Positions 10,214 to 64,000 of a stretch of 64,000 bases of DNA are shown here, piece by piece (the stretch's first letter is position 1; each line of letters starts with the position of its first letter). The stretch covers positions 1-64,000 of the forward strand of contig NZ_FQVI01000024.1 of assembly GCF_900129135.1 (NCBI RefSeq), given 5' to 3'. Position numbers and translations under genes: made by a program. The notes under the pieces were generated by a model, which searched no databases, was not told the DNA's origin, and saw only the letters and a list, made by a program, of their open reading frames with translations. Origin of the DNA: Lactonifactor longoviformis DSM 17459 (GTDB lineage Bacteria > Bacillota > Clostridia > Lachnospirales > Lachnospiraceae).

Positions 10214-12229
10214 ATGAATGTAGTGATTGGGATTGACACCGGGGGAACTTATACGGATGCGGCTGTCCTGAACGAAGAGACCAGAGAGGTTCTTGCGTCG
10301 GCGAAGGCGCTCACCACAAAGGATAACCTGGAAACGGGAATAAAAAATGCACTGAGTCAGGTGCCCGGGGAATATTTCCGGGACTGCAAGATGGTGGCTT
10401 TGTCCACAACGCTGGCGACCAATGCGTGTGTGGAGAAAAAATACGGAAAGGCAAAACTGATTCTTTTTGGGACGGATAAGGAGTCTGCCTTAAGAATCAC
10501 GGCCCAGCTGGGGGCGATCCCTCCTGGGGATCTGATCTGTATTGACACGAAGACAAAGTTTTCCGGGGAAATTCCCTGCATGCCGGACTGGGAGGCGTTC
10601 GCCGGGATGGTGCGGGAGGAGTGCTGCGGCTGTGATGTGATAGCTGTCAGCGAGGTATATACTGCACAGACCGGTTCGGTTCTGGAACGGAAGGCCAGGG
10701 ATATCATCCAGTCAGTTCTGGGAAAAACGGTAGTCTGCGGATATGAGCTTTTCGAAGAGCTGGGATTTATAAAGCGGGGGCTGGGCGCGTATCTGAACGG
10801 TAAATTAATTCCTTTGATCGACGAGTTTCTGAGGGCGGTAAAAGGCGTTATGGGAAGACTTGGGATTGACTGTCCGGTTTCCATTGTGCGCAGCGACGGG
10901 ACACTGATGTCGGTGGAATACACCAGACTTCATCCTATTGAGACGCTCCTGTGCGGCCCTGTGGCAAGTGTAACAGGGGCAGGGGGACTGACGAGAGAGA
11001 AAGACGCCTATGTAATTGATATGGGTGGGACAACTTCGGATATCGCAATTTTAAGAGGCGGAGCCCCGTCCATAGTGCGCGGGGGAATTACGATTGGGGA
11101 CTGGAAGACGTTTGTGAAAGGCGTGTACATAGACACCTTCGGGCTGGGAGGCGACAGCGAGGTAAAATTTCAGGACAACGAACCGGTGATTATGGATAGC
11201 AGGGTAATCCCTATCTGTATTCTGGCATCGGAATATCCCCAGATTTGCGAGGAATTGAGTGCCCTGAGAAACAGTGAGTGGCAGATATCCAATCACGCTC
11301 ATGAGTACTATAAGCTTACAAAACCGGTGGAAAGCCTCAGCAGCTTTCCGGAGCATGAAAGAGAGATAATCTGTGAACTGGAGACAAAACCTATGTCTAT
11401 GAGACAGCTTGCCAGGACTCTTAAGATGAGCGTCAGCGATCTGCGCCTTGGCAGCCTTGAGAGCAGGGGAATCATTATGAAGTCAGGGCTTACCCCTACG
11501 GATATTATGCATGTGAGAGGAGAGTTCACGGACCACAATGCACAGGCAGCCGGAAACCTGGCCGTTTATCTCGCTCACATTCATGGCTGGACGCTGGAGG
11601 AACTCTGTGAAAAGATTTATGACCGGGTAAAATTTAAAATGTACCGGAATATAGTCAGGGCAGCCATGGTGAGAAAATACAGCGAGACTGCAAGAGAGGG
11701 GATGGGCGGAGTACTGGAACAAATGATAGCCTGTCAGTGGGAGGAGGCGAAAGAAGAGATAAAAGGACGGGAACGTTCCGGCGGCATGGAATTTAGAGCT
11801 CTCTTCCGCCTGGAGTATCCGCTCATAGGGATTGGCGGTCCGGTCAAGGTATTTGCAGAGGATGTGGCAAAAGCACTGCAGACCCGGGCTGTAATCCCTG
11901 AGAATTTCAGGGTTGCCAATGCCATAGGGGCAGCAATCTGTAATATGGAAGTAACGGCGCAGGCCGTGGTGACTTATGTATATGACAACGGAGGGGCTGT
12001 GACCCGCCTTCGGGTCAGCTCCAAGGGAGAGGCGGTTACCTTCGAGCCCAAAGAGGAAGAAAAGGCCTGTGCGCTGGCAGAAAAGCTGGCCGTAAAGCGG
12101 GCAGAAGAGGAGGCTCTGGAGCGGGGGTATGATAAAGACAGGCTTGAGATTCAGGTGGAACGTACGGACAAATACTTTATTGGTTTTGGAGGCATTATGG
12201 AGACCCTTTTTGTGGCATGTGCGAAATAA
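10214..12229 (+). CDS. Hydantoinase/oxoprolinase family protein
   Basis: 671-residue ASKHA-fold ATPase-like protein of COG0145 (HyuA/acetophenone carboxylase/acetone carboxylase family). The N-terminal nucleotide-binding signature is GIDTGGTYTDAAVL (about 6-19). The second phosphate motif DMGGTTSDIAIL is near 275-286, preceded by LLCGPVASVTGAGG. Family members cleave or carboxylate cyclic amides and ketones with ATP, often together with a HyuB-like subunit. No HyuB is adjacent, so it may act alone or do something different. The middle region (about 330-480) contains a winged-helix-like stretch, MSMRQLARTLKMSVSDLRLG, seen in clostridial members. A good ribosome site (AAAAGG) and its own promoter suggest a single-gene unit. 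The substrate is unknown. Confidence 0.87.
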   Translation: MNVVIGIDTGGTYTDAAVLNEETREVLASAKALTTKDNLETGIKNALSQVPGEYFRDCKMVALSTTLATNACVEKKYGKAKLILFGTDKESALRITAQLGAIPPGDLICIDTKTKFSGEIPCMPDWEAFAGMVREECCGCDVIAVSEVYTAQTGSVLERKARDIIQSVLGKTVVCGYELFEELGFIKRGLGAYLNGKLIPLIDEFLRAVKGVMGRLGIDCPVSIVRSDGTLMSVEYTRLHPIETLLCGPVASVTGAGGLTREKDAYVIDMGGTTSDIAILRGGAPSIVRGGITIGDWKTFVKGVYIDTFGLGGDSEVKFQDNEPVIMDSRVIPICILASEYPQICEELSALRNSEWQISNHAHEYYKLTKPVESLSSFPEHEREIICELETKPMSMRQLARTLKMSVSDLRLGSLESRGIIMKSGLTPTDIMHVRGEFTDHNAQAAGNLAVYLAHIHGWTLEELCEKIYDRVKFKMYRNIVRAAMVRKYSETAREGMGGVLEQMIACQWEEAKEEIKGRERSGGMEFRALFRLEYPLIGIGGPVKVFAEDVAKALQTRAVIPENFRVANAIGAAICNMEVTAQAVVTYVYDNGGAVTRLRVSSKGEAVTFEPKEEEKACALAEKLAVKRAEEEALERGYDKDRLEIQVERTDKYFIGFGGIMETLFVACAK

Positions 12230-12698: not shown

Positions 12699-13640
12699 AT
12701 GGAACGAAGGAATAAGGGAAATGTAAACGAAGGTTCAAAAGAAAAAGGGATTGCCATGAAAGTATCCAGGGTAAGTATCGGGGTTAATGTGATCCTGTCC
12801 CTTTTTAAACTATTGGCTGGCATTGCCGCCCACTCCGGGGCAATGATCTCCGACGCTGTGCACTCCGCGTCCGATGTATTCGGAACCTTTATCGTGATGA
12901 TAGGTGTTACCGTAGCAGATAAGAAATCAGACAAAGAACATCCTTACGGTCATGAGCGTCTGGAGTGTGTGGCATCTATTCTGCTTGCCGTCATTCTTAT
13001 GCTCATTGGGCTGGGCATCGGAATCGGCGGAGTACAGAAAATCATACACCGTGACAAAGAAACCCTGGTGGTTCCCGGAGTTCTGGCACTTATCGCAGCA
13101 GTGCTTTCCATTATCGTGAAAGAATGGATGTACTGGTATACCAGGGCTGCCGCGAAGAAGATTAATTCAGGGGCACTTATGGCAGAGGCCTGGCACCACA
13201 GATCCGATGCGCTCTCCTCAGTAGGTGCATTCATCGGCATATTGGGCGCAAGGCTGGGGGCACCTATTCTGGATCCCATTGTCAGCGTGGGAATCTGTAT
13301 CTGTATAGGAAAGGCTGCAATTGATATCTTCCGGGATGCCATGGATAAAATGGTAGACAAATCCTGCGATGAGGAAACCATCCGGAACATGGAGTCCGCC
13401 ATCATCTCTACTCCGGGGGTAGAGGGCATCGATCTCCTCCGCACCAGAATGTTTGGCGCCAAAGTATACGTAGACATCGAGATCTCTGCCAACGGAGATA
13501 TGACCCTGAATGACTCCCACAAAATTGCGGAATCCGTCCACGACACCATAGAGAAGGAGTTTCCGCAGGTAAAACACTGCATGGTCCACGTAAACCCAAC
13601 CAATCCCCCCAAGCAAATAGCAGCCATGCACTCTATCTAG
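12699..13640 (+). CDS. Cation diffusion facilitator (CDF) metal exporter
   Basis: 313-residue divalent-cation/proton antiporter of the inner membrane. The transport-site residues are visible: HSGAMISDAVHSASD in helix 2 (DxxxD around residues 52-56) and HHRSDALSS in helix 5 (HxxxD, about 165-172). Six predicted helices (30-210) precede a cytoplasmic ferredoxin-like dimer domain with HCMVHVNP at its end. The start at 12699 follows GGAGG by eight bases; the frame stays open further upstream through the riboswitch terminator, but that part is leader. Regulation by the NiCo riboswitch indicates that Ni2+, Co2+ or Fe2+ is exported. Length and motifs are normal. Confidence 0.93.
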   Translation: MERRNKGNVNEGSKEKGIAMKVSRVSIGVNVILSLFKLLAGIAAHSGAMISDAVHSASDVFGTFIVMIGVTVADKKSDKEHPYGHERLECVASILLAVILMLIGLGIGIGGVQKIIHRDKETLVVPGVLALIAAVLSIIVKEWMYWYTRAAAKKINSGALMAEAWHHRSDALSSVGAFIGILGARLGAPILDPIVSVGICICIGKAAIDIFRDAMDKMVDKSCDEETIRNMESAIISTPGVEGIDLLRTRMFGAKVYVDIEISANGDMTLNDSHKIAESVHDTIEKEFPQVKHCMVHVNPTNPPKQIAAMHSI

Positions 13641-13671
13641 TGCTGGCTGCTATTTAACAAGGGAACATTCC

Positions 13672-14211
13672 CTACGCCCTGCTCCACAGGATGATACCAT
13701 TGGCCTTCAGCCAATACTCCTGATACTCATATTCAGGCATCATACTTTCCAATACTTCCCTTGTGGAATACATTCCCTTCAGGAGCTGTGCCAGTTCCAG
13801 AATTACCACATAATCCTGCACAGGCTCCGGTGCCAGAAGAAGCCGCCAGTTAAACTGCAATTCCCCTTTTTTGCTGCAGCTTCCCCATTTGGCACGCTTC
13901 TCCATGATCGTGATTCTGTTATATGTAACTCCCATGATTTCCGCATAATAGCTGGATTTTTCTTCAAAGAGCTCTGCTGCGGCTTCGTAGTAATAAGAAC
14001 GCTCTTTTCTGGTAAAGGGCTGGGCATTGATATACCAGGCCTCTGCCTTTTTCTGCTCCGTTTTCCTGGTAATCCAGCCTTCTTTAAAACGGACAAACTG
14101 CCGGATTCTTCGTCTTGAGTACTTTTTAGGCGCTTTTACAAGGACAGTGCCTTCTTCTGTGGTCTGTATGGCCAGAGTTGTCCTGTTGCTGTAAATCAAT
14201 TGGTATTCCAT
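13672..14211 (-). CDS. YgjP/DUF45-like protein with degenerate metallopeptidase motif
   Basis: 179-residue protein of the YgjP (WLM/SprT-like) family. The middle part is typical: KYSRRRIRQFVRFKEGWI, PFTRKERSYYYEAA and, near residue 115, MEKRAKWGSCSKKGELQFNWRL, the family hallmark. The catalytic segment is not: where relatives have HELAHL followed by a third His, this one reads ILELAQLLKGMYS, so all three zinc ligands are replaced and only the glutamate remains. It is probably a non-enzymatic paralogue. The start at 14211 is chosen because AAGGGGA lies seven bases before it; the frame is open upstream to 14346 but without a ribosome site. It converges with the CDF gene. Confidence 0.78.
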   Translation of the reverse strand: MEYQLIYSNRTTLAIQTTEEGTVLVKAPKKYSRRRIRQFVRFKEGWITRKTEQKKAEAWYINAQPFTRKERSYYYEAAAELFEEKSSYYAEIMGVTYNRITIMEKRAKWGSCSKKGELQFNWRLLLAPEPVQDYVVILELAQLLKGMYSTREVLESMMPEYEYQEYWLKANGIILWSRA

Positions 14212-14433
14212 TTTTATTTCCCCTTTATCTAATCTTATCCTCCTTATATTGTCCAGATTCCAGACCTGTATCTGATGTAAAAAATGGTCTGCATTTATTA
14301 TACTGAAAAAGACAGGAATTTGCCATAGAAACTTATGCAATATCATGTATAAAAGTCCCGAACCGGATGATAGCTGCTATAGTATCTTCGTGTGGACAGG
14401 TCTTTGATTTTCGTGTGATGCCGGGAATTTCGC

Positions 14434-14461
14434 TTGACGTACAGGTGAAAATGGTTATAAT
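14434..14461 (+). promoter_or_regulatory. Sigma-A promoter of the DUF2752 gene
   Basis: TTGACG at 14434-14439, a 16-base spacer and TATAAT at 14456-14461, 46 bases before the start codon at 14508. Confidence 0.65.
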
Positions 14462-14507
14462 AATCTGAGAGCCTGAGATACTATACAAGAAATGGACAGC
14501 ACCTGCC

Positions 14508-14936
14508 ATGAAAAGAATCGTAAGCAAAAGAGAAAACAGAAGCCTTTACTGGACCGGGTGGGCGCTGCTGGCAGCGTGCACCGGAATCGTTCTGCTCGCA
14601 AGATGGCTGAACATCAGCTATTCGGATTACAGTCTTCCCTGTATGTTTCACAGATATACGGGCTATTACTGTCCTGGGTGCGGGGGAACAAGGGCTGTAA
14701 TGGCTCTTTTTCACGGAAGGCTGGTACAGGCAGTATGGTATCATCCTTTGGTGCCTTATGCGGCAGTATTGTATGTTTGGTTTATGGTGTCCAATACTAT
14801 AGAAATCCTGTCAGGGAACAGGTGGGAGATAGGGATGAGGTTCAGAGAAGGATATCTGTATGCCGGTCTGGGAATCCTTGCGGTGAATTGGATCTTTAAA
14901 AATATTCTGCTGGCTGTGTGGGGCATACAGATGTAA
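14508..14936 (+). CDS. DUF2752 membrane protein
   Basis: 142-residue small membrane protein. Three or four hydrophobic helices are visible (about 17-33, 80-98, 118-138). The DUF2752 signature is seen as CMFHRYTGYYCPGCGGTRA (about 45-63), in which the conserved cysteines and the GCGGTR turn occur. Its biochemical role is unknown; the cysteines suggest metal binding or a thiol function. The ATG at 14508 is preceded by no strong Shine-Dalgarno. It has its own promoter and is followed by a long perfect hairpin terminator, so it is likely a single gene. Confidence 0.82.
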   Translation: MKRIVSKRENRSLYWTGWALLAACTGIVLLARWLNISYSDYSLPCMFHRYTGYYCPGCGGTRAVMALFHGRLVQAVWYHPLVPYAAVLYVWFMVSNTIEILSGNRWEIGMRFREGYLYAGLGILAVNWIFKNILLAVWGIQM

Positions 14937-55397: not shown

Positions 55398-55856
55398 TTG
55401 CTACTTATATTTATTTTATTCTGGATTGTGTTAAACGGGAAGATAACCGGAGAAATTATTGGAGCGGGAATCGTCATTTCTCTGCTGGTATTTATTTTCG
55501 CCTGCAGGTATCTGGGTTACAGCTTAAAAAGGGATGTCCGGTTTTTGAAAAAAATCCCAGTTGTGTGCTGGTATCTGGGTAATCTTATCCTGGAGGTAAT
55601 AAAGGCAACAGCCAGTGTCATGAGATTTATTTTTTCTTTTAAATATGAGGTGGAACCTGTGCTGGTGCATTTTACAGTGGACTTTAAGACGGATATAGGA
55701 CGGGTTATGATGGCTAACTATATCACGCTGACACCAGGGACCATTACGGTAGATGTGGACGGGAATGATTTTACTGTACATTGTCTGGACAAAGACTTTT
55801 CTCAGGGGATAGACGAATGTCTTATGATCAGGATTATTAAAAAAGTGGAGGAATAA
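55398..55856 (+). CDS. mnhE: Mrp/Mbh subunit E (MnhE/MbhA-like)
   Basis: 152-residue membrane protein of the Mrp antiporter E subunit family. Two N-terminal hydrophobic helices (about 1-10 and 15-34) are followed by KKIPVVCWYLGNLILEVIKA, the typical third segment. The soluble C-terminal half contains MMANYITLTPGTITVDVDG, the clearest family signature, and ECLMIRIIKKVE. Within Mrp and Mbh complexes this subunit supports assembly of the ion-translocating module. The start is TTG, seven bases after AAGGAGG. The next gene follows after two bases. Confidence 0.93.
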   Translation: MLLIFILFWIVLNGKITGEIIGAGIVISLLVFIFACRYLGYSLKRDVRFLKKIPVVCWYLGNLILEVIKATASVMRFIFSFKYEVEPVLVHFTVDFKTDIGRVMMANYITLTPGTITVDVDGNDFTVHCLDKDFSQGIDECLMIRIIKKVEE

Positions 55857-55858
55857 GT

Positions 55859-56176
55859 ATGGAACAGTATTACAGAGGTCTTTTTATCCTGTGCCTGATT
55901 ATCCTGGCAGTTATTATTCTGATTTATGTCATTCGTTCCATTATAGGGCCGAAGCTCACAGATCGGATTATAGCTGTCAATGCAATCGGTACTCTTACAA
56001 TTGTGGCAATAGCGATTCTGGCGATGCTTCTAAAAGAGTCTTATCTGCTGGATGTGTGTCTCATCTATGCTATGCTGAGCTTTTTGGCTGTGGTTGTTCT
56101 GGTACAGTTATATTTAAAGGTGTATGCAGAAAAACAGAAGGAGGACGAGGAAGAACATGATTGGGGAGAAAATTAG
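55859..56176 (+). CDS. mnhF: Mrp/Mbh subunit F (MnhF/MbhB-like)
   Basis: 105-residue protein with three membrane helices (about 7-27, 36-58, 62-86). The conserved RSIIGPKLTDRIIAVNAIGT (about 26-45) contains the Asp needed for ion transport in Mrp F subunits. A short charged tail (EKQKEDEEEHDWGEN) overlaps the next gene by 20 bases. It is the expected second gene of an mrp/mbh membrane operon. Confidence 0.93.
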   Translation: MEQYYRGLFILCLIILAVIILIYVIRSIIGPKLTDRIIAVNAIGTLTIVAIAILAMLLKESYLLDVCLIYAMLSFLAVVVLVQLYLKVYAEKQKEDEEEHDWGEN

Positions 56177-56495
56177 ATTTGTACTGTGCGCTGCATTTAT
56201 GCTGAGCGGCCTGGTGATTATGCTTGGGGCAGCCATCGGCAATTTTCGTTTCCGAACGGCTCTTAACCGGATGCATGCGGCAGCCATGGGGGACTCGCTG
56301 GGGAAGCTCTGCCTTCTGATAGGCCTTATGCTGTATCAGTGGGGCGGCACAGTTGAAGCAAAACTTCTGTTCATCCTGGCTTTTTTCTGGATGGCAGGTC
56401 CCGTGTGCAGCCATATGCTCTGCGAATTCGAAGTGACAACCAATGAGCTGATGAAAAAAGAGAAAGAGGTGAAGAAGGATGCTGACAGCGTTTAA
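56157..56495 (+). CDS. mnhG: Mrp/Mbh subunit G (MnhG/MbhC-like)
   Basis: 112-residue protein with three membrane helices (about 6-26, 45-64, 69-90). The G-subunit pattern is LVIMLGAAIGNFRFRTALNRMHAAAMGDSLG (about 16-46), including the RMHA element. The start at 56157, inside the end of the F gene, is chosen over an earlier in-frame ATG because GAGGACGAGG lies just before it. It overlaps the next gene by 17 bases. Confidence 0.92.
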   Translation: MIGEKIRFVLCAAFMLSGLVIMLGAAIGNFRFRTALNRMHAAAMGDSLGKLCLLIGLMLYQWGGTVEAKLLFILAFFWMAGPVCSHMLCEFEVTTNELMKKEKEVKKDADSV

Positions 56496-56736
56496 ATTTG
56501 TAATGTTTTTCGGACTAATTGTATGCGCTCTTTCCGCCTGTCTGGCCAGGCGTCTTCTGATATCTGTAGCTATATTTATGTCGTACAGTGTCATTATGTC
56601 TATTTTGTGGGTGGTGCTTAAGTCCCCGGATCTTGCTATCACGGAGGCTGCGGTTGGCGCCGGGGTAACCAGCGTCTTATTTTTTGTAACCCTCAAACGT
56701 ATCCGGGCAATTGGAGAGGACGAAAAGCATGAGTAA
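56479..56736 (+). CDS. mbhD: MbhD-like subunit (DUF4040; MrpA C-terminal part)
   Basis: 85-residue protein with three short helices. It matches the MbhD/DUF4040 unit that in bacterial MrpA is fused to the large subunit's C-terminus. The signature is SPDLAITEAAVGAGVTSVLFFVTLKR (about 49-74), with the conserved Glu in TEAAVG. A separate gene for this unit is the Mbh-type arrangement. AAAGAGGTGAAG precedes the ATG. It overlaps the following gene by eight bases. Confidence 0.9.
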   Translation: MLTAFKFVMFFGLIVCALSACLARRLLISVAIFMSYSVIMSILWVVLKSPDLAITEAAVGAGVTSVLFFVTLKRIRAIGEDEKHE

Positions 56737-57661
56737 GATTAAGAAAGACTACGAGCATACCTTTTTTGGCAAACTAGAGCGTTGGATTGCCGGGGAAAAT
56801 GATGTTTTTTACGAAGATCCTGAACCCATGGCCCTGGAAGAACGGGAAAAGAAAGCAGGGCATAACTATCTCGCATATCTGGAACAGATCCCGGATGTTG
56901 GATATTCCTATGAAAAAGCGAAGGCCTACCATTATATATACCGGATTCTGACGGTGCTTATGGGTGTATTTATTGTAGGAACTTTGCTTTATGTGGTGTA
57001 TTTTCTCCCTCCCTTTGGGGATGCAGACAATCCGGTAAACAATGAAGTGTCCCGGCGTTACATAGAAAAAGGGATGGAAGAGACAGGCGCTGTGAACATT
57101 GTTGCAGGAATGATCCTGGACTACAGGGCATTCGATACCTTCGGGGAATCCAATGTTTTATTTATCGCTGCTTCTGCGGTGCTTCTCCTTCTGAAGGCCG
57201 GCGACGGCGCGAAGACAGCGAAATCCCAGAAGGAGATTGGAATGAAGGAAGATGTAATCCTGCAGAGAGTAACTTTTATTCTGTCTCCTATGCTGTTCCT
57301 ATTTGGAATTTATGTGATTCTCAATGGTCATCTGTCGCCGGGAGGGGGATTTTCCGGAGGCGCAATTATAGGAGGGAGTCTGATCCTTTTCAGGAATTCC
57401 TATGGATATGAGGCCATTGAACAGTTTTTTACAGAAAAGACGTTTCAGAACTGTACTCTGATTGCCCTTGGGTTTTACTGCCTTGCCAAAAGCTACTCTT
57501 TTTTTACAGGTGCGAATCACCTGAACAGCCATATTCCGCTGGGAACGCCTGGTGATATCTTCAGTGCAGGGTTAATCCTGCCTCTGAACATTGCAGTTGG
57601 CATTGTTGTGGCCTGTACCATGTATTCGTTCTATGCACTTTTCAGCAAAGGAGGGATTTGA
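56729..57661 (+). CDS. MbhE-MrpB fusion subunit
   Basis: 310-residue membrane protein joining two units that are separate genes in archaeal mbh. A charged cytoplasmic N-terminus (1-70, with EDPEPMALEEREKKAG) is a feature I do not recognise. Residues about 73-160 resemble MbhE, the last part of MrpA, with NIVAGMILDYRAFDTFGESNVLFIAASA. Residues about 185-310 are MrpB/MbhF: LSPMLFLFGIYVILNGHLSPGGGFSGGAIIGG and HLNSHIPLGTPGDIFSAGLILPLNIAVG. The start at 56729 follows GGAGAGGA. The following MrpC gene begins one base after the stop. Confidence 0.87.
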   Translation: MSKIKKDYEHTFFGKLERWIAGENDVFYEDPEPMALEEREKKAGHNYLAYLEQIPDVGYSYEKAKAYHYIYRILTVLMGVFIVGTLLYVVYFLPPFGDADNPVNNEVSRRYIEKGMEETGAVNIVAGMILDYRAFDTFGESNVLFIAASAVLLLLKAGDGAKTAKSQKEIGMKEDVILQRVTFILSPMLFLFGIYVILNGHLSPGGGFSGGAIIGGSLILFRNSYGYEAIEQFFTEKTFQNCTLIALGFYCLAKSYSFFTGANHLNSHIPLGTPGDIFSAGLILPLNIAVGIVVACTMYSFYALFSKGGI

Positions 57662-57662
57662 G

Positions 57663-58037
57663 ATGCTGGAGCACTTTCTGGAAAATGGAGAGGTTGTTAC
57701 CTCTGTGATTCTCTTCGGTATCGGACTGGCGGCTCTCCTTCTGCACAAAAATCTGATAAAAAAGATAATTGGTCTTAATATTATGGACACCGCTGCTTAT
57801 TTGTTTCTGGCGGCGCAGGGATACATAGAAGGCAGGGGGGCGCCTATCGTTACAGACGGGGTCACCAGAATGGACGCGTACATTAATCCCATCCCCAGCG
57901 GCCTGGTCCTCACGGGAATTGTAGTGTCCGTGAGCGTGACAGCGCTGATGCTTGCCCTTACGGTCTGCCTGTATCAGAAATATCATTCCCTTAATATGGA
58001 CTATATCATTATGAAGATGAGGAAGGAGGAGGAGTAA
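57663..58037 (+). CDS. mnhC: Mrp/Mbh subunit C (NuoK-like)
   Basis: 124-residue homologue of NuoK/MrpC/MbhG with three helices (about 13-30, 38-56, 78-104). The pattern ILFGIGLAALLLHKNLIKKIIGLNIMDTAAYLFL and DAYINPIPSGLVLTGIVVSVSVTALMLAL is that of the family; conserved Glu residues of NuoK are partly replaced, as in MrpC. AAAGGAGGG lies before the ATG; the frame is open further upstream without a site. The next start (TTG) follows immediately after the stop. Confidence 0.92.
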   Translation: MLEHFLENGEVVTSVILFGIGLAALLLHKNLIKKIIGLNIMDTAAYLFLAAQGYIEGRGAPIVTDGVTRMDAYINPIPSGLVLTGIVVSVSVTALMLALTVCLYQKYHSLNMDYIIMKMRKEEE

Positions 58038-59528
58038 TTGGAATTTGTGTGCAACTTTCCGTTTTTTTCCATCATGGTTTCCATGTTCTCCGGTGTCATT
58101 TCCTCTGTCTTAAAGGGGAAGAAGGCCAGGAATCTGGGAGTTGCGGTAAATGGGATTGTGATTGTGCTCTCTGCCGCAACTCTTGCTTATGTGATGTCTA
58201 CAGGGGAAAGCTTTGTCTATACTATGGGGCATTATACCGCACCCTGGGGAAATGAGATACGCGTAGGCGTTCTGGAAGCTTTAACAGCTACTTTTTTCAG
58301 CTTTGTGATGCTGCTGTCCGTTCTGGGAGGGATGAAGCATCTTAGCCGGGAACTGGAGGACAGGAGCCTGGGCATGTATTTTCTGTTTCTGAATCTGATG
58401 CTTGGGGCGATTCTGGCATTGATCTATACAAATGATATTTTTACCGCCTATGTGTTTATAGAAATTAATACAATAGCTGCCTGCGGCCTGATTATGGTGA
58501 GGAAAACAGGTCCTGTGTATGTGGCGGCAACCAGATATATGATTATGAGTCTTATGGGGTCAGGCCTTTTTCTCATCGGTGTATGTATCCTGTATACAGT
58601 TACCGGACATCTGCTGATGCCAAATATTCAGGAAAGCGTAAAGATGCTGATGCTAAGAGGGGAGTATCATATCCCTCTGCTAATGGTAATTATTCTTATC
58701 ACGGCTGGCCTGGCCATTAAGAGCGGTCTGTATCCTTTTCATTCCTGGATGCCCGCTGCTTACGGCTTTTCCCTGCCTTCCTCCAGTGCCATTCTGTCCG
58801 GGCTGGTGTCAAAGAGCTATATTTTTCTGCTGATAAAGATTATCTACCGGGTAGTGGGCAAGGATACAATTCTGGGAAGCGATATTATAAAAGTACTCTT
58901 TGCATTCAGCGTGTTTGCTATAATCCTGGGTTCTGTGGGAGCCATTCGGGAAAAAGACATCCGATATATGAACGCATACTCTTCAGTAGCTCAGATTGGT
59001 TATGTGTATATGGGGATTGGGCTGGGAAGCCGTGCGGGAATGGTAGCGGCAATGTTTCATATCCTGGTGCACGCGGCTACGAAATCTCTCCTCTTTATCA
59101 GTGCAGAGGGGCTGAGTCAGGCCTCCGGCCATACCTATCGTATACAGGAATTAAAGGGTGCGGGATACAGGAGCCGGCTGGCCGGAATCGGTTTCACCGT
59201 AGGCGCGTTTTCCCTGGTGGGGATTCCCCTGTTCGGCGGATTTATATCTAAAATTTCTTTTGCTGTGGCAGCTACAGAGGATCCCAGAAAGGTCGTCCTT
59301 GTATTTATCGTGATTGCAATCAGTACATTGCTGAATGCTATTTACTTTGTCCGTACGGTAATAATTATCTATACCCCGGCGGCTGCATCTGAGAAGTCGA
59401 GAAGAGTAAAACTGGGAGCAGCCGGTTGTACAGCCATTACAGTATTTGCAGCCGTCAATTTTATCCTGGGCCTGTTTTCAGGGCCCTTTATAGGGGCCAT
59501 CAAACAGGGGATTGCCATGTTCCAGTAG
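58038..59528 (+). CDS. Antiporter-like subunit 1 (NuoN/MrpD-like)
   Basis: 496-residue proton-conducting membrane protein of the NuoL/M/N family, about 14 helices. The key charges are kept: Glu142 in the helix-5 segment VFIEINTIAACG, and Lys228 in LAIKSGLYPFHSWMPAAY. The broken-helix region SSSAILSGLVSKSYIFLLIK and HILVHAATKSLLFISAEGL (helix-12-like Lys) are also present. Its unusual helix-5 context and loop (AAYGFSLPSSSAIL) set it apart from the three that follow. The start is TTG at 58038, five bases after GGAGGAGG-type sequence. It is the first of four successive pumping subunits. Confidence 0.92.
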   Translation: MEFVCNFPFFSIMVSMFSGVISSVLKGKKARNLGVAVNGIVIVLSAATLAYVMSTGESFVYTMGHYTAPWGNEIRVGVLEALTATFFSFVMLLSVLGGMKHLSRELEDRSLGMYFLFLNLMLGAILALIYTNDIFTAYVFIEINTIAACGLIMVRKTGPVYVAATRYMIMSLMGSGLFLIGVCILYTVTGHLLMPNIQESVKMLMLRGEYHIPLLMVIILITAGLAIKSGLYPFHSWMPAAYGFSLPSSSAILSGLVSKSYIFLLIKIIYRVVGKDTILGSDIIKVLFAFSVFAIILGSVGAIREKDIRYMNAYSSVAQIGYVYMGIGLGSRAGMVAAMFHILVHAATKSLLFISAEGLSQASGHTYRIQELKGAGYRSRLAGIGFTVGAFSLVGIPLFGGFISKISFAVAATEDPRKVVLVFIVIAISTLLNAIYFVRTVIIIYTPAAASEKSRRVKLGAAGCTAITVFAAVNFILGLFSGPFIGAIKQGIAMFQ

Positions 59529-59543
59529 AAAAGGAGGAGACTT

Positions 59544-61040
59544 ATGGGTGAAAATACTTTCTTAGTACTGCCTGTTTTGATGCCCGTACTTGCAGGGGGG
59601 CTTCTTTTGGCGGTACAAAAGCATCTGAGAAGCAGAAGAGCTCTACTGGGATACTTTTTGACGTTTTTAATCCTCCACGGAGGGCTTACGATACTACTGG
59701 GAATCTGGTGTCTGACGGAGGGGGAATATAGATACCTGCAGCTGTGGCAGCTGATGGACGGCGTATCCATTGCCCTACATACGGATCGCCTTTCCCTGCT
59801 GTTTGCTTTATTCATGGCCGCGGTATGGACTCTGGCAGGAATATTTGCAGTGGGCTATATGAGAAAGGAAGAGAGGGAAGGAACCTTTTATGCCTGGTAT
59901 CTCATGGCCGGAGGAGTGCTTACCGGACTGGATCTCTCCGCTAATATGGTTACTCTCTACCTATTTTATGAAATGATGTCGCTGTCCACCCTGCCCTTAG
60001 TCCTTCATACCCTCAAGAAAGAGGCCATAATGGCGGGGCTAAAATACTTATTTTATTCTGCGGGTGGAGCTTTCGCCGGCCTGTTCGGAATTATCTACTT
60101 GTTTGGAAAGGGGATACTCTGTGACTTTTCCCCTGACAGGACGCAGAATATTCAGGCGGCGGCCCAGTCAGACCCTGTGTTTTATGTGGTGATCTTTCTT
60201 ATGATTCTGGGCTTCGGTGTAAAGGCTGGCATGTTTCCGTTTCACGGATGGCTGCCGACTGCCCACCCGGTGGCACCGGCGCCTGCCAGTGCTGTGTTGT
60301 CCGGTGTGATTACAAAGGCGGGAGTGCTGGCCATCGTCCGGCTGATCTATTTTGTAGTGGGAGCTGAGGTGATCAAGGGGACCTGGGTGCAGTACGCCTG
60401 GCTGATCTTGGCACTCATCACTGTGTTTATGGGATCTATGATGGCTTACCGGGAACCGTTGATGAAGAAGCGGTTCGCCTATTCAACGGTTAGCCAGCTT
60501 GCGTATATTATGGCAGGGCTTTCTCTGCTTAATTTTTACGGGCTGGCAGGTGCCCTTTCCCATGTGGTTTTCCATTCTCTGATTAAAAATGCTCTTTTTG
60601 CCGTTGCCGGAGCGATTATCTGTCAGACCGGGAAGACGAAGGTTTCCGAGCTTAGAGGGATTGGAAAAGAGATGCCTGTTACCATATGGTGCTTTACACT
60701 GGCTGCTTTAGGTCTCATAGGAATTCCTCCGTTTGCAGGCTTTATCAGCAAATGGTATCTGGCGGCGGGGGCTTTGCAGGCTGAGATAGGTGTCCTGCGC
60801 TGGATAGCACCTGCGGTTCTGCTGCTCAGCGCTCTGCTGACTGCGGGGTATCTGCTTCCCATCACCATTCACGGGTTCCTGCCGGGAAAAGCGTATGACT
60901 ACGGAAGTCTGAAGAAACGGGAGCCCTCTCTGTGGATGGTACTCCCCATTGTAATCCTGACTGCCGGAATTGCATATTTCGGTATATGGCCGGGAGGACT
61001 TATGGAACTGCTCACTGCCATCGGCAAGAGCATATTATAG
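59544..61040 (+). CDS. Antiporter-like subunit 2 (MrpD/NuoM-like)
   Basis: 498-residue relative of MrpD and NuoM with 14 predicted helices. Glu143 lies in LFYEMMSLSTLPLVLHT and Lys227 in GVKAGMFPFHGWLPTAHPVAPAPASAVLSGVITKAG, the canonical form of the motif. HVVFHSLIKNALFAVAGAII provides the central second Lys, and GLIGIPPFAGFISKWYL the late Lys. It is separated from the first antiporter-like gene by 15 bases with AAGGAGGAG before the ATG. The helix-5 segment is almost the same as in subunit 3, suggesting these two arose by duplication. Confidence 0.94.
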   Translation: MGENTFLVLPVLMPVLAGGLLLAVQKHLRSRRALLGYFLTFLILHGGLTILLGIWCLTEGEYRYLQLWQLMDGVSIALHTDRLSLLFALFMAAVWTLAGIFAVGYMRKEEREGTFYAWYLMAGGVLTGLDLSANMVTLYLFYEMMSLSTLPLVLHTLKKEAIMAGLKYLFYSAGGAFAGLFGIIYLFGKGILCDFSPDRTQNIQAAAQSDPVFYVVIFLMILGFGVKAGMFPFHGWLPTAHPVAPAPASAVLSGVITKAGVLAIVRLIYFVVGAEVIKGTWVQYAWLILALITVFMGSMMAYREPLMKKRFAYSTVSQLAYIMAGLSLLNFYGLAGALSHVVFHSLIKNALFAVAGAIICQTGKTKVSELRGIGKEMPVTIWCFTLAALGLIGIPPFAGFISKWYLAAGALQAEIGVLRWIAPAVLLLSALLTAGYLLPITIHGFLPGKAYDYGSLKKREPSLWMVLPIVILTAGIAYFGIWPGGLMELLTAIGKSIL

Positions 61041-61050
61041 GAGGTGCGGC

Positions 61051-62520
61051 ATGGAAAACATCTATATCATTATACCTATTCTGCTTCCTATCCTCGCCGG
61101 GGCCCTGTTATTTTTCTTTCCTATAAAGGATAGAAAGAGAAGGAACATTGCAGTGGAAAGCCTTGTCATTGTAAATTCTGCAATTTCCCTTGGGATTTTG
61201 TGGGCGGGCAGTAAAGAGAGTCTGATCCTGTTCGAACTATATAAAAATGTAAGCCTGCTTTTCCGCATCGACGGTCTGGGAATGCTGTTCGGGACCATCG
61301 TATCCACACTCTGGCCATTGGCTACACTGTATGCCTTCGAGTATATGACTCATGAGACCAGAGAAAATACATTTTTCGCCTTTTATACCATGACCTATGG
61401 GGTGAGCCTTGGAATTGCCTATGCGGGAAATATGATGACTATGTATCTTTTCTATGAGCTGCTTACCCTGGTAACCATACCACTTGTGATGCATACCATG
61501 ATTCCCCGGGCCAGGCGGGCCGGCAGGCAGTATGCCTATTATTCCATCGGAGGAGCAGCCTTTGCCTTTACCAGCCTGATTTTTATCACTGTGTACGGGG
61601 AAGGGGCGTCCTTTGCCATCGGAGGCGTGATGGATCACACGTTGGTGGACGATAACATTCTCCGCCTTATCTATGTGATGGCTTTTCTGGGGTTTGGGGT
61701 AAAGGCAGCCGTATTCCCCCTTCACGGATGGCTGATCTCTGCGTCTGTGGCTCCCACCCCGGTTACCGCCCTGCTCCATGCGGTTGCGGTGGTGAAGGCA
61801 GGAGTCTTTGCGGTCCTTCGTCTTACGTACTACTGCTACGGGACAGAGATACTCAAAGGAAGCTGGGCCCAGGACATTGTGATGGGAATTGCCATGTTTA
61901 CTGTGGTATACGGCAGTACCATGGCTGTGAAAGAGGTACATTTTAAACGGCGGCTGGCCTACTCTACCATCAGCAATCTGTCCTACATTCTGATGGCAGC
62001 AACACTTATGAGCCCTCTGGGAATGATTGCAGCTATGTGTCATATGGTAGCTCATGCCATCGGCAAGATTTGTGCATTCTTTGTATCAGGATCGGTTATG
62101 TTCAAAACAGGATATCATTTTATACCGGCCCTGGACGGTGTGGGCCATCAGATGAAAAAAACATTTCTGACTTTTACGGTATCAGCTATGTCGCTCACGG
62201 GAATCCCTCTCACTATTGGATTTATCAGTAAATGGCGGATTGCAAAGGCAGCCTTTGCGGGGGAAACTCTTCTAAGCTACGGAGTGGTTATTGTTCTGTT
62301 CTATGCCGCGCTGATGGCCGCCATTTACATGTTTACTGTGGTTATACGTGCGTTTTGCCCGGAAAAAGGGAAGGAAAGGCTGATCGGCGGAGACACAACG
62401 GATCCCACCTGGCGAATGCTGATTCCCCTGGGGGTGTTTGCTGCTGCTATGATCGTACTGGGAGTTCACAGCGGACCGCTTCTGGATTTTCTGGAACAGG
62501 TAGCAGCCGGTTCTATATAG
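61051..62520 (+). CDS. Antiporter-like subunit 3 (MrpD/NuoM-like)
   Basis: 489-residue member of the same family. Glu136 lies in LFYELLTLVTIPLVMHT and Lys218 in GFGVKAAVFPLHGWLISASVAPTPVTALLHAVAVVKAG, a slightly divergent version. HMVAHAIGKICAFFVSGSV and SLTGIPLTIGFISKWRI are the other conserved ion-path elements. The start at 61051 lies after GGAGG; the longer frame upstream overlaps the previous gene without a ribosome site. It follows subunit 2 by ten bases. Confidence 0.94.
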   Translation: MENIYIIIPILLPILAGALLFFFPIKDRKRRNIAVESLVIVNSAISLGILWAGSKESLILFELYKNVSLLFRIDGLGMLFGTIVSTLWPLATLYAFEYMTHETRENTFFAFYTMTYGVSLGIAYAGNMMTMYLFYELLTLVTIPLVMHTMIPRARRAGRQYAYYSIGGAAFAFTSLIFITVYGEGASFAIGGVMDHTLVDDNILRLIYVMAFLGFGVKAAVFPLHGWLISASVAPTPVTALLHAVAVVKAGVFAVLRLTYYCYGTEILKGSWAQDIVMGIAMFTVVYGSTMAVKEVHFKRRLAYSTISNLSYILMAATLMSPLGMIAAMCHMVAHAIGKICAFFVSGSVMFKTGYHFIPALDGVGHQMKKTFLTFTVSAMSLTGIPLTIGFISKWRIAKAAFAGETLLSYGVVIVLFYAALMAAIYMFTVVIRAFCPEKGKERLIGGDTTDPTWRMLIPLGVFAAAMIVLGVHSGPLLDFLEQVAAGSI

Positions 62521-62531
62521 GAGGTAAAAAG

Positions 62532-64000
62532 ATGCAGGGAAATATATTACTTGGACTTACGGTGGGCTGGCCTTTTGCAGCTGCACTGCTGTGCTATCTG
62601 ACCGGACGGTTCAGCAAAAGAATGCGGAATTATGCGGCAGATCTTTCGATCCTTCTTGAGCTCCTTCTTTTCGCGTCTCTTGCTGTGCAGGTGTGGCAGG
62701 GAGAGACAGTGACATTTGAGGCAGCAGGAATCTGCAGTCTGGGGATCTGCTTCGTACTGGACGGGTTTCGGGCTCTGTTCGGACTCCTGTCTGCGTTCTT
62801 GTGGCTGATGTCTGCGCTGATGTCAAATGAATACATGAAACATGAGAGAAACAGAAACCGATATTATATGTTCCTTTTGTTTACCCTTGGGGCCACCATG
62901 GGGGTATTCCTCTCCGCGGATCTCTATACCACCTTTATCTTTTTTGAGATTATGTCTTTTACCTCCTATGTGTGGGTGGCTCAGAACGAAACGCCCCAGG
63001 CGCTGGACGCGGCGTCTACCTATCTGGGCATCGCCGTGGTGGGAGGACTGATCCTTCTCATGGGACTCTTTATGCTGCATCATCTGCTGGGAACGCTGCG
63101 GATAGATGAACTGTATGAAGCAGGCAAAAAAGCATGGACAGAAGACTCCGGGCAGATCTACACAGCAGGGGCGCTGATCCTTTTAGGATTCGGGGCAAAG
63201 GCCGGAATGTTTCCTCTTCATGTGTGGATGCCAAAAGCACATACGGTATCTCCTGCGCCGGCCAGTGTGCTGCTGTCGGGAATACTTACAAAGGCAGGTC
63301 TGTTTGGCATTCTGTCAGTTTCCTGCAATATCTTCCGATATGATCCCTGGTGGGGTACCGCCGTCCTTCTGCTGGGGATGGTAACTATGACCCTGGGGGC
63401 AGTTCTGGCTGTATTTGCAGTGAATCTAAAGCGGACCCTTGCCTGTTCCTCTATGTCCCAGATTGGGTTTGTACTAATCGGACTGGGAATGGCAGGGCTT
63501 CTGGGGGAAGAGAACCAGCTGGCAGTGCGCGGCATTGTGCTTCACATGATGAATCATTCCCTGTTTAAGCTGGTACTGTTTCTGGCTGCCGGAGTGGTGT
63601 TTATGAATCTTGAGGAATTGGAATTAAACCAGATAAGAGGCTTCGGGCGCAGAAAACCCTTTCTGCAGCTGGCATTTTTATCCGGGGCACTGGGAATCGG
63701 AGGAATTCCTTTGTTCAGCGGTTATGTAAGTAAGACGCTTCTCCATGAAAGTATCGTAGAATATATCCACGAAGGCGGTACTGTGTTGGGAAGCACAGGT
63801 TTTACTTCCTTTGTGGAACTTTTGTTTCTGTTCTGCGGGGGACTGACAGTTGCCTATATGATAAAACTCTACCATGCACTGTTTAGAAACCGCCACCCGG
63901 TGAGACAGAAGGAATTCGAGGAGCAGTATCGAAACTATGCAAATCCTATGACAAAATTAACGCTTCTTCTGTCCGGCGCTGTAATTCCTGTTTTGGGAAT
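62532..64000 (+). CDS. Antiporter-like subunit 4 (NuoL/MrpA/MrpD-like), cut by the window edge
   Basis: At least 489 residues are visible without a stop. Glu139 lies in FIFFEIMSFTSYVWVA and Lys223 in GFGAKAGMFPLHVWMPKAHTVSPAPASVLLSGILTKAG. The later elements HMMNHSLFKLVLFLAAGVV and GIGGIPLFSGYVSKTLL are intact. Its HVWMPKAH and SYVWVA features are closest to the long MrpA/NuoL or HyfB-type antiporter subunits found with membrane-bound hydrogenases and formate hydrogenlyases. GAGG lies before the ATG, 11 bases after subunit 3. Total length and what follows cannot be seen. Confidence 0.92.
   Translation, partial: MQGNILLGLTVGWPFAAALLCYLTGRFSKRMRNYAADLSILLELLLFASLAVQVWQGETVTFEAAGICSLGICFVLDGFRALFGLLSAFLWLMSALMSNEYMKHERNRNRYYMFLLFTLGATMGVFLSADLYTTFIFFEIMSFTSYVWVAQNETPQALDAASTYLGIAVVGGLILLMGLFMLHHLLGTLRIDELYEAGKKAWTEDSGQIYTAGALILLGFGAKAGMFPLHVWMPKAHTVSPAPASVLLSGILTKAGLFGILSVSCNIFRYDPWWGTAVLLLGMVTMTLGAVLAVFAVNLKRTLACSSMSQIGFVLIGLGMAGLLGEENQLAVRGIVLHMMNHSLFKLVLFLAAGVVFMNLEELELNQIRGFGRRKPFLQLAFLSGALGIGGIPLFSGYVSKTLLHESIVEYIHEGGTVLGSTGFTSFVELLFLFCGGLTVAYMIKLYHALFRNRHPVRQKEFEEQYRNYANPMTKLTLLLSGAVIPVLG

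Follow-up and report, generated by a model that had tools for sequence, protein, structure and literature searches.

Group 3 Mrp systems are defined by the lack of mrpA and the presence of mrpD only, at times in several copies, and the stand-alone Mrp of Pyrococcus furiosus uses Na+ and is involved in the pH dependence of growth (PMC8415708). A cluster with three pump genes, mrpFGBCDDAE, was described for Microbacterium (PMC5703873), and two extra pump-like genes stand beside the group-3 mrp of Ca. Nitrospira alkalitolerans (PMC7784846). Four pumps are found in the Nitrospira 2M and the rhizobial green complex I, and five in Manganitrophaceae Complex_I_3 (PMC9040806). The published mechanism has two protons per Na+ step, and its two-pump unit is described as extensible to three or four pumps in enzymes of the complex I kind (PMC7419157). 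Here, a stretch of 64,000 nucleotides from Lactonifactor longoviformis DSM 17459 (NZ_FQVI01000024.1, positions 1–64,000; the window) was analyzed, which ends within a cluster of ten genes for Mrp-type subunits and four antiporter-like pumps (N1–N4). Judged from sequence, this cluster very probably encodes a group-3 Mrp (CPA3), an electrogenic cation/proton antiporter that stands alone, lacks a redox arm and has four proton-channel subunits.

Subunits and conserved residues

The cluster spans positions 55398–64517 in a single direction (+), its genes overlapping or lying at most 15 bases apart, with Shine–Dalgarno-like stretches, as judged by eye, preceding the starts. Since the window stops within the cluster, the final gene extending 517 bases beyond it, the analysis was carried on to the end of the contig, which has 68,100 bases. 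Reading frames and Pfam matches bore out the subunit order given in the preliminary description, i.e. E, F, G, MbhD, MbhE+B and C followed by four NuoL/M/N-like pumps, and likewise the Mbh-like split of the MrpA tail into separate MbhD and MbhE+MnhB genes. The MrpE, F, G, B and C set characteristic of group 3 was thereby identified by Pfam, with no mrpA gene, and the MrpA-tail parts are separate genes attached to no pump. A single MrpA (or MrpA′) joining a pump to the TM17–21 domain (TM, transmembrane helix), as expected for groups 1 and 2, was not found; N4 resembles MrpA in its lateral-helix-like tail, but lacks the MrpA C-terminal domain.

The Proton_antipo_M matches of N1–N4 had E-values from 1.1e-42 to 3.9e-58 (Pfam). 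At E ≤ 0.001, exactly four matches to this family (PF00361) were obtained in the whole 4.84 Mb genome, all of them in the cluster and without internal stops, and the only MrpF match of the genome was the cluster gene, so this is the sole Mrp cluster of the genome. A frameshifted duplicate among the pumps, considered in the preliminary description, was ruled out, all four frames being intact.

Pump residues were compared in an alignment that included E. coli NuoL/M/N, Hyf, MrpA/D and MbhH/MbsH. The Glu/Lys pairs 142/228, 143/227, 136/218 and 139/223 of N1–N4, previously assigned to helices 5 and 7, coincided with E144 and K229 of E. coli NuoL. Each pump carries a TM5 Glu, a TM7 Lys, a TM8 Lys, a Lys in the NuoL K342 column and a TM12 Lys, and a NuoM-type TM12 Glu is present in none of the window's four pumps. 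These five charged residues were invariant in 74 (N1), 62 (N2), 80 (N3) and 55 (N4) sequences, consisting of length-filtered relatives plus the window's own sequence, with truncated sequences dropped. The pumps differ next to the TM8 Lys: in N3, a His is aligned with NuoL H254 and the Lys is preceded by one inserted residue (HAVAVVK type) in 80 of 80 sequences, N2 has a Ser and no insertion in 62 of 62, and N1 and N4 likewise have Ser without insertion in every row. All single middle pumps checked in three-pump clusters have the TM8 His, and in the expanded clusters examined it is retained in one pump, with Ser in the other. Substitutions were seen in pumps outside this group, a Tyr replacing the TM8 Lys in the middle pumps of family f22, and Asp and Ala replacing the TM5 Glu in D2 and D3 of Rhodobacteraceae.

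This TM8 difference, together with the single His-type pump left in expanded clusters, could mean that fewer than four channels conduct, N2 or N3 acting as a spacer or regulator and the stoichiometry being that of a three- or two-pump Mrp. We regard this as rather unlikely, because the five charged residues are invariant in N2 and N3 although relatives are only 41–55% identical to the window protein (five-genome alignments), which would be unexpected for a dead channel, and because the Ser at the TM8 site is shared with N1 and N4.

Candidate residues of a cation path were aligned to 6cfw_D, 6cfw_E and 7d3u_A. The carboxylates MrpA E706, D792 and E796 are reported as essential for cation transport, and P. 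furiosus MbhD E69 is the homologue of the essential E706 (PMC7419157). E56 of the MbhD-like subunit aligned with this E69. D136 and E140 of the MbhE/B protein lie in the motif DYRAFDTFGE, which aligned with MbhE and the group-2 MrpA tail, and by motif spacing we read them as occupying the places of MrpA D792 and E796. Counterparts of all three MrpA carboxylates of the Na+ path thus appear to be present, and D35 of the MrpF-like subunit (counted by eye) occupies the place expected for MrpF D35 in the proposed path.

For the Schaedlerella N4 ortholog (719 aa), an AlphaFold model had a mean pLDDT (predicted local distance difference test) of 80.7, with high confidence for most pump helices. Ranked by E-value, its PDB matches were headed by two MrpA chains, of which one is an integrative model; MrpD, MrpA and MrpD chains came next, ahead of NdhF/NuoL chains.

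Predicted coupling and direction, and the search for a redox partner

Gene order and homology suggest that the membrane order would be a Na+ module (E-F-G-MbhD-MbhE/B), then C, N1, N2, N3 and N4, the ten proteins joining in one complex. N1 would take the place of MrpD/NuoN, and N4 would lie at the far end with its lateral helix running back. Proton flow through the four linked channels would be coupled, at the C/MbhD/N1 junction, to an opposite flow of Na+ (or K+), such that one cation crossing is tied in series to four proton channels, as an extension of the published two-pump mechanism. If Na+ is the transported ion and all four channels conduct, more H+ would pass per Na+ than in a two-pump Mrp. 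At the same proton-motive force, such a ‘low gear’ would allow Na+ to be expelled against a larger gradient, and it could maintain the Na+ gradient when that force is weak, in an anaerobe that probably uses Rnf as its primary ion pump. RnfC and RnfD matches were obtained in the own genome, therefore a primary ion pump exists elsewhere in it; RnfC was above cut-off in 110 of 120 genomes sampled from the family, each at least 90% complete.

The same Rnf genes are compatible with operation in the opposite direction, Na+ entry (e.g. down a gradient made by Rnf) powering H+ export for acid resistance. Acid-producing fermenters require proton export. A corresponding role at low pH was proposed for the archaeal P. 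furiosus group-3 Mrp, with its one MrpD (PMC8415708). We hold this direction to be unlikely: it would be thermodynamically harder with more H+ channels per Na+ site, unless more than one Na+ is moved per cycle, and the ion moved by the organism's own Rnf may be Na+ or H+.

The preliminary description had proposed coupling to a small redox step (ferredoxin or formate to H2, for example) and had suggested reading downstream for a catalytic module. The remaining 4.1 kb of the contig hold only the end of N4 followed by RNase Z-like, tsaD and ispD genes (names read from sequence), and no match to NuoH/EchB (PF00146), NuoB/small subunit (PF01058), NuoD (PF00346) or the NiFe large subunit (PF00374) was found in the genome, leaving that coupling unsupported. 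DabA (PF10070) also gave no match there. Among 14 control genomes the same searches matched NuoH in 11, NuoB in 11, NuoD in 11, the NiFe large subunit in 5 and DabA in 2. Of the family genomes with four pumps, one of 21 had a NuoH-type gene (G010, on another contig) and the other 20 had no match.

The flanks of 101 loci were then searched (BLAST, 1e-5), and no flanking open reading frame (ORF) matched E. coli NuoB, CD, H or I or Hyf A, C, G, H or I. Loci L147–L151 lie outside this set: L147–L150 are clusters of the complex-I or hydrogenase type, with NuoB/CD/H/I- or Hyf-like genes, and L151 is truncated at a contig end. NuoE/F/G-like genes lie near two of the 101 loci, approximately 6 kb downstream in L047 and approximately 3 kb downstream on the opposite strand in L104; presumably they are parts of soluble NADH enzymes or FeFe-hydrogenases. 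At the three-pump locus of Peptoclostridium (L126), the only such matches were ferredoxin-type stretches of AsrA/AsrC genes approximately 6 kb upstream.

The MbhE/B protein begins with a hydrophilic N-terminal extension of approximately 70 aa (56729–56940), with a partly conserved W..G.kDp motif; this start is common to Lachnospiraceae-type clusters and absent from the three-pump MbhE proteins inspected. Genes flanking the cluster differ between loci, the commonest neighbor family occurring in 17 of 85 (TrmB-like) and a thioredoxin-like one in 13 of 85 (names read from sequence). A redox-driven pump, its four-pump arm docking, e.g. via the MbhE/B extension, an electron-transfer module encoded elsewhere (ferredoxin, hydrogenase, formate), could appeal to the homology of the cluster to MBH, MBS and complex I membrane arms, to that extension and to the NuoE/F/G-like genes, but is highly improbable given that these genes are confined to L047 and L104, that the flanks vary, that the genome has no match to the partners searched for, and that 20 of the 21 four-pump family genomes have none to NuoH. 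By these results, the cluster was assigned neither to MBH/Ech/hydrogenase-4 nor to respiratory complex I (including 2M and green) nor to DabAB.

Table 1 Genes of the cluster. Positions are those of the contig, which are also those of the window
Feature	Position	Strand	Details
MrpE-like subunit (MNHE)	55398..55856	+	152 aa; TTG start after AGGAGGTG; PF01899, E 2.2e-26
MrpF-like subunit (MrpF_PhaF)	55859..56176	+	105 aa; PF04066, E 9.5e-13
MrpG-like subunit (PhaG_MnhG)	56157..56495	+	112 aa; PF03334, E 6.6e-19
MbhD-like subunit (Pfam MbhD)	56479..56736	+	85 aa; counterpart of part of MrpA tail
MbhE+MnhB fusion (Pfam MbhE+MnhB)	56729..57661	+	310 aa
MrpC/NuoK-like subunit (Oxidored_q2)	57663..58037	+	124 aa; PF00420, E 1.9e-19
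N1 antiporter-like pump	58038..59528	+	496 aa; TTG start; Proton_antipo_M; E142, K228, K259, K349, K405
N2 pump, middle-pump duplicate, TM8 Ser type	59544..61040	+	498 aa; Proton_antipo_M; E143, K227, K258, K348, K403
N3 middle pump, TM8 His type	61051..62520	+	489 aa; Proton_antipo_M; E136, K218, H243, K249, K339, K394
N4 pump with C-terminal lateral-helix-like tail	62532..64517 (window shows to 64000)	+	661 aa; Proton_antipo_M; E139, K223, K254, K346, K401

Upstream of the cluster, genes read from sequence as tsaE, tsaB and rimI were found; no tRNA was detected in the window. Scans for terminator-like (10 found, 10.0 expected) and promoter-like signals (23 found, 15.6 expected) were uninformative. 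In one relative (G040, L036) the cluster is followed by a gene at 13605–14678, judged from sequence to be ApbE-like (flavin transferase); this gene did not recur as a general neighbor.

Origin and distribution of the fourth pump

A tree of the four pumps with their relatives, as proposed in the preliminary description, was built from 83 proteins (bootstrap unsettled, correlation 0.988). N1, N2, N3 and N4 each formed one clade (100/99 or better), and N2 and N3 were sisters (99/96). The N2/N3 pair was joined (100/100) by the middle pumps, one per cluster, of Peptoclostridium acidaminophilum, Halomonas and Rhodobacteraceae and by an MrpD-like pump from the complex I encoded on S. meliloti pSymA. 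N4 joined the third pumps of three-pump clusters (97/92), and N1 joined the first pump of P. acidaminophilum (100/100), lying on the NuoN/MbhH/MbsH side with modest support. In a second tree, the N2/N3 pairs of family f27 (G083, G050) fell within the same N2 and N3 clades. The trees indicate that the four-pump form arose from a three-pump Mrp by duplication of the middle pump, giving N2 and N3.

A second clostridial family, f36 (G157, G089), apparently gained a fourth pump separately, because its extra pump was placed outside the clade of N2/N3 and the middle pumps (99/97 in the second tree). It stood weakly beside N1 (94/82); its profile score, which was best for N2 (338 bits; 176 for N1), speaks against a near relationship to N1, and in G089 the copy is only partial. 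The placement of the Rhodobacteraceae D3, HyfD, NuoL and the third G347 pump is made unsure by long branches. The f36 fourth pumps lie at 11059–12507 of L133 and 8754–10351 of L134, the L134 gene being split into two overlapping frames.

Relatives of N3 were searched for in named genomes; at least 545 such relatives were confirmed and the best 80 taken. By title, these 80 were mostly Lachnospiraceae, the others being Bacillota, Clostridiales, Eubacteriales, Oscillospiraceae or Butyricicoccus. N1-N2-N3-N4 followed in order in 72 of the best 80 records, and in the other 8 the absent pump falls beyond a contig end 0–309 bases off. In the family sample, a strong match was obtained in 22 of the 120 genomes and an adjacent N2/N3 pair in 21. 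When the loci of all 22 were opened, 21 had four pumps in order, contig ends truncating N4 in G351 and N1 in G310; the remaining genome, G347, has a different three-pump cluster (L162, 3821–11671). The last pump of this cluster forms a long branch placed with MrpA/NuoL, and an Asn is aligned to the TM7 Lys in it.

Across the class, a match was found in 26 of 243 genomes. Four pumps were present in eight of these (the own genome, G022, G275, G040, G083, G157, G050, where N1 runs into a contig end, and G089, where the third pump is split); eight had N1-middle-N4 three-pump clusters, two had N1-N4-N4, one was cut, four had complex-I- or hydrogenase-type clusters, and three with a single match (G212, G245, G261) were left unopened. 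The four-pump cluster is a real and widespread variant and not the oddity of a single genome.

Other arrangements were also seen. By best profile score, L145 (6633–15356) and L146 (6395–14325), from two other clostridial genomes, are the three-pump N1-N4-N4 clusters, in which the distal pump seems to have been duplicated rather than the middle one. In L171 (720–12838; G039:C148, same order), three tandem Mrp-type modules lie on one strand over approximately 12 kb, each with MrpC, a fused D/E/B, G, F and one MbhH-like pump, and with E seen in two; no match to the E. coli Nuo/Hyf set was found within the 40 kb read.

It is possible, although we put it forward tentatively, that stand-alone Mrp systems form a gear series with 1, 2, 3 and 4 channels per Na+ site, the H+/Na+ ratio climbing with their count; the lowest gear would then be the form with four channels, which seems to have evolved twice in Clostridia, and the sole channel per stack with the TM8 His and inserted residue may point to one special coupling channel.

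Several observations weigh against the four-pump antiporter reading. Activity, ion specificity and assembly are inferred, and none of the NCBIfam models listed (for the large subunits, the 25 best) attained its curated cut-off. Among the 72 ordered loci, two have one pump broken into two frames (N4 in L089, N3 in L111), and further breaks were seen in relatives, with split genes for the third pump of G089 and N1 of G088 and in-frame stops in N2 of G275 and N3 of G310. Beside the pumps, E, F and G were undetected in G374 (L169, 1–3375) and E, F, G and D in G291 (L153, 1–2228), although upstream sequence is present in both; an obligate ten-subunit complex predicts no such gaps. Some N4 orthologs (L094, L056, L102, L057) start later, apparently without the first two helices, and in the Schaedlerella model the C-terminal lateral-helix region is of low confidence. 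The genome is 97.75% complete, which makes an overlooked redox partner unlikely and leaves a residual gap.

The N4 tail, furthermore, scales uncleanly with pump number. The median number of residues after TM15 was 149.5 in four-pump clusters (n = 82, range 87–205; 115 in the window), 134 in three-pump clusters (n = 11, range 56–181) and 95 in NuoL, so that three- and four-pump lengths overlap; within family f36 alone, the four-pump tails (189, 208) exceed the three-pump one (168). For extra-pump complex I, a lateral-helix insertion of 26 residues was reported (PMC9040806). Since tail lengths overlap, it is without a clear counterpart in N4, no search for the insertion itself having been made.

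Comparison with known systems

The preliminary description had set the four pumps against two for Mrp, one or two for Mbh/Mbs and three for complex I, a comparison that was incomplete, since the publications cited above describe three pump genes in Mrp clusters and four or five pumps in complex I. Its notion of an under-described multi-pump complex held in part: the stand-alone cluster seems under-described, and four pumps as such have precedent in the 2M and green complex I (PMC9040806). In the open-licence literature, no report of a four-pump stand-alone Mrp was found, three pumps being published for the stand-alone type, and the form is apparently so far undescribed.

For complex I, it is a matter of debate how proton movement is coupled from one antiporter-like subunit to the next in the row, and whether each moves one proton or not; tests are confounded by redox chemistry and quinone. 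A redox-free four-pump complex with natural three-pump relatives in the same bacterial class would allow stoichiometry to be related directly to pump number. If the antiporter reading is true, the cluster would also be an unnoticed part of the ion economy of Lachnospiraceae-type bacteria, occurring in 21 of the 120 sampled family genomes.

The group 3 Mrp of P. furiosus is alike in its E, F, G, B, C and MrpD-type subunits and in the lack of both mrpA and an adjoining redox module; it has one MrpD in the available description, whereas four different orthologous pumps occur in the window cluster, and N4 ends in a lateral-helix-like tail. Group 1 Mrp (Bacillus pseudofirmus, Anoxybacillus flavithermus; PDB 7qru, 6z16) shares the Na+-path carboxylates, and its MrpA is the best match of the N4-ortholog model by E-value; unlike the window cluster, it has two pumps and an MrpA with its own C-terminal domain. 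Pyrococcus MBH and MBS (PDB 6cfw, 6u8y) share the MbhD/MbhE-type split, and by sequence every pump has MbhH or MbsH as its best match in the PDB, but the window cluster lacks NiFe or MBS catalytic subunits. The extra-pump complex I enzymes (2M, green, Manganitrophaceae) are alike in having at least four antiporter-like subunits and differ in their complex I redox arm, none having been found for the window cluster. A complex I cluster with four antiporter-like subunits was also seen on S. meliloti pSymA (L128, 11815–18200), its MrpD-like pump grouping with N2/N3 and the middle pumps; it is probably the published green type.

The three-pump clusters are the nearest in layout. The cluster on the Peptoclostridium acidaminophilum plasmid EAL2_808p has the same gene order, N1 corresponding to D1, N2/N3 to D2 and N4 to D3, and that on the Rhodobacteraceae SC52 plasmid has, by annotation, the same order with a fused D/E/B. 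In Halomonas sp. PA16-9, only an MbhD-like gene and three pumps were recognized, and E, F, G and C were not. What separates the window cluster from the three-pump clusters is the middle pump, of which they have one and it has two.

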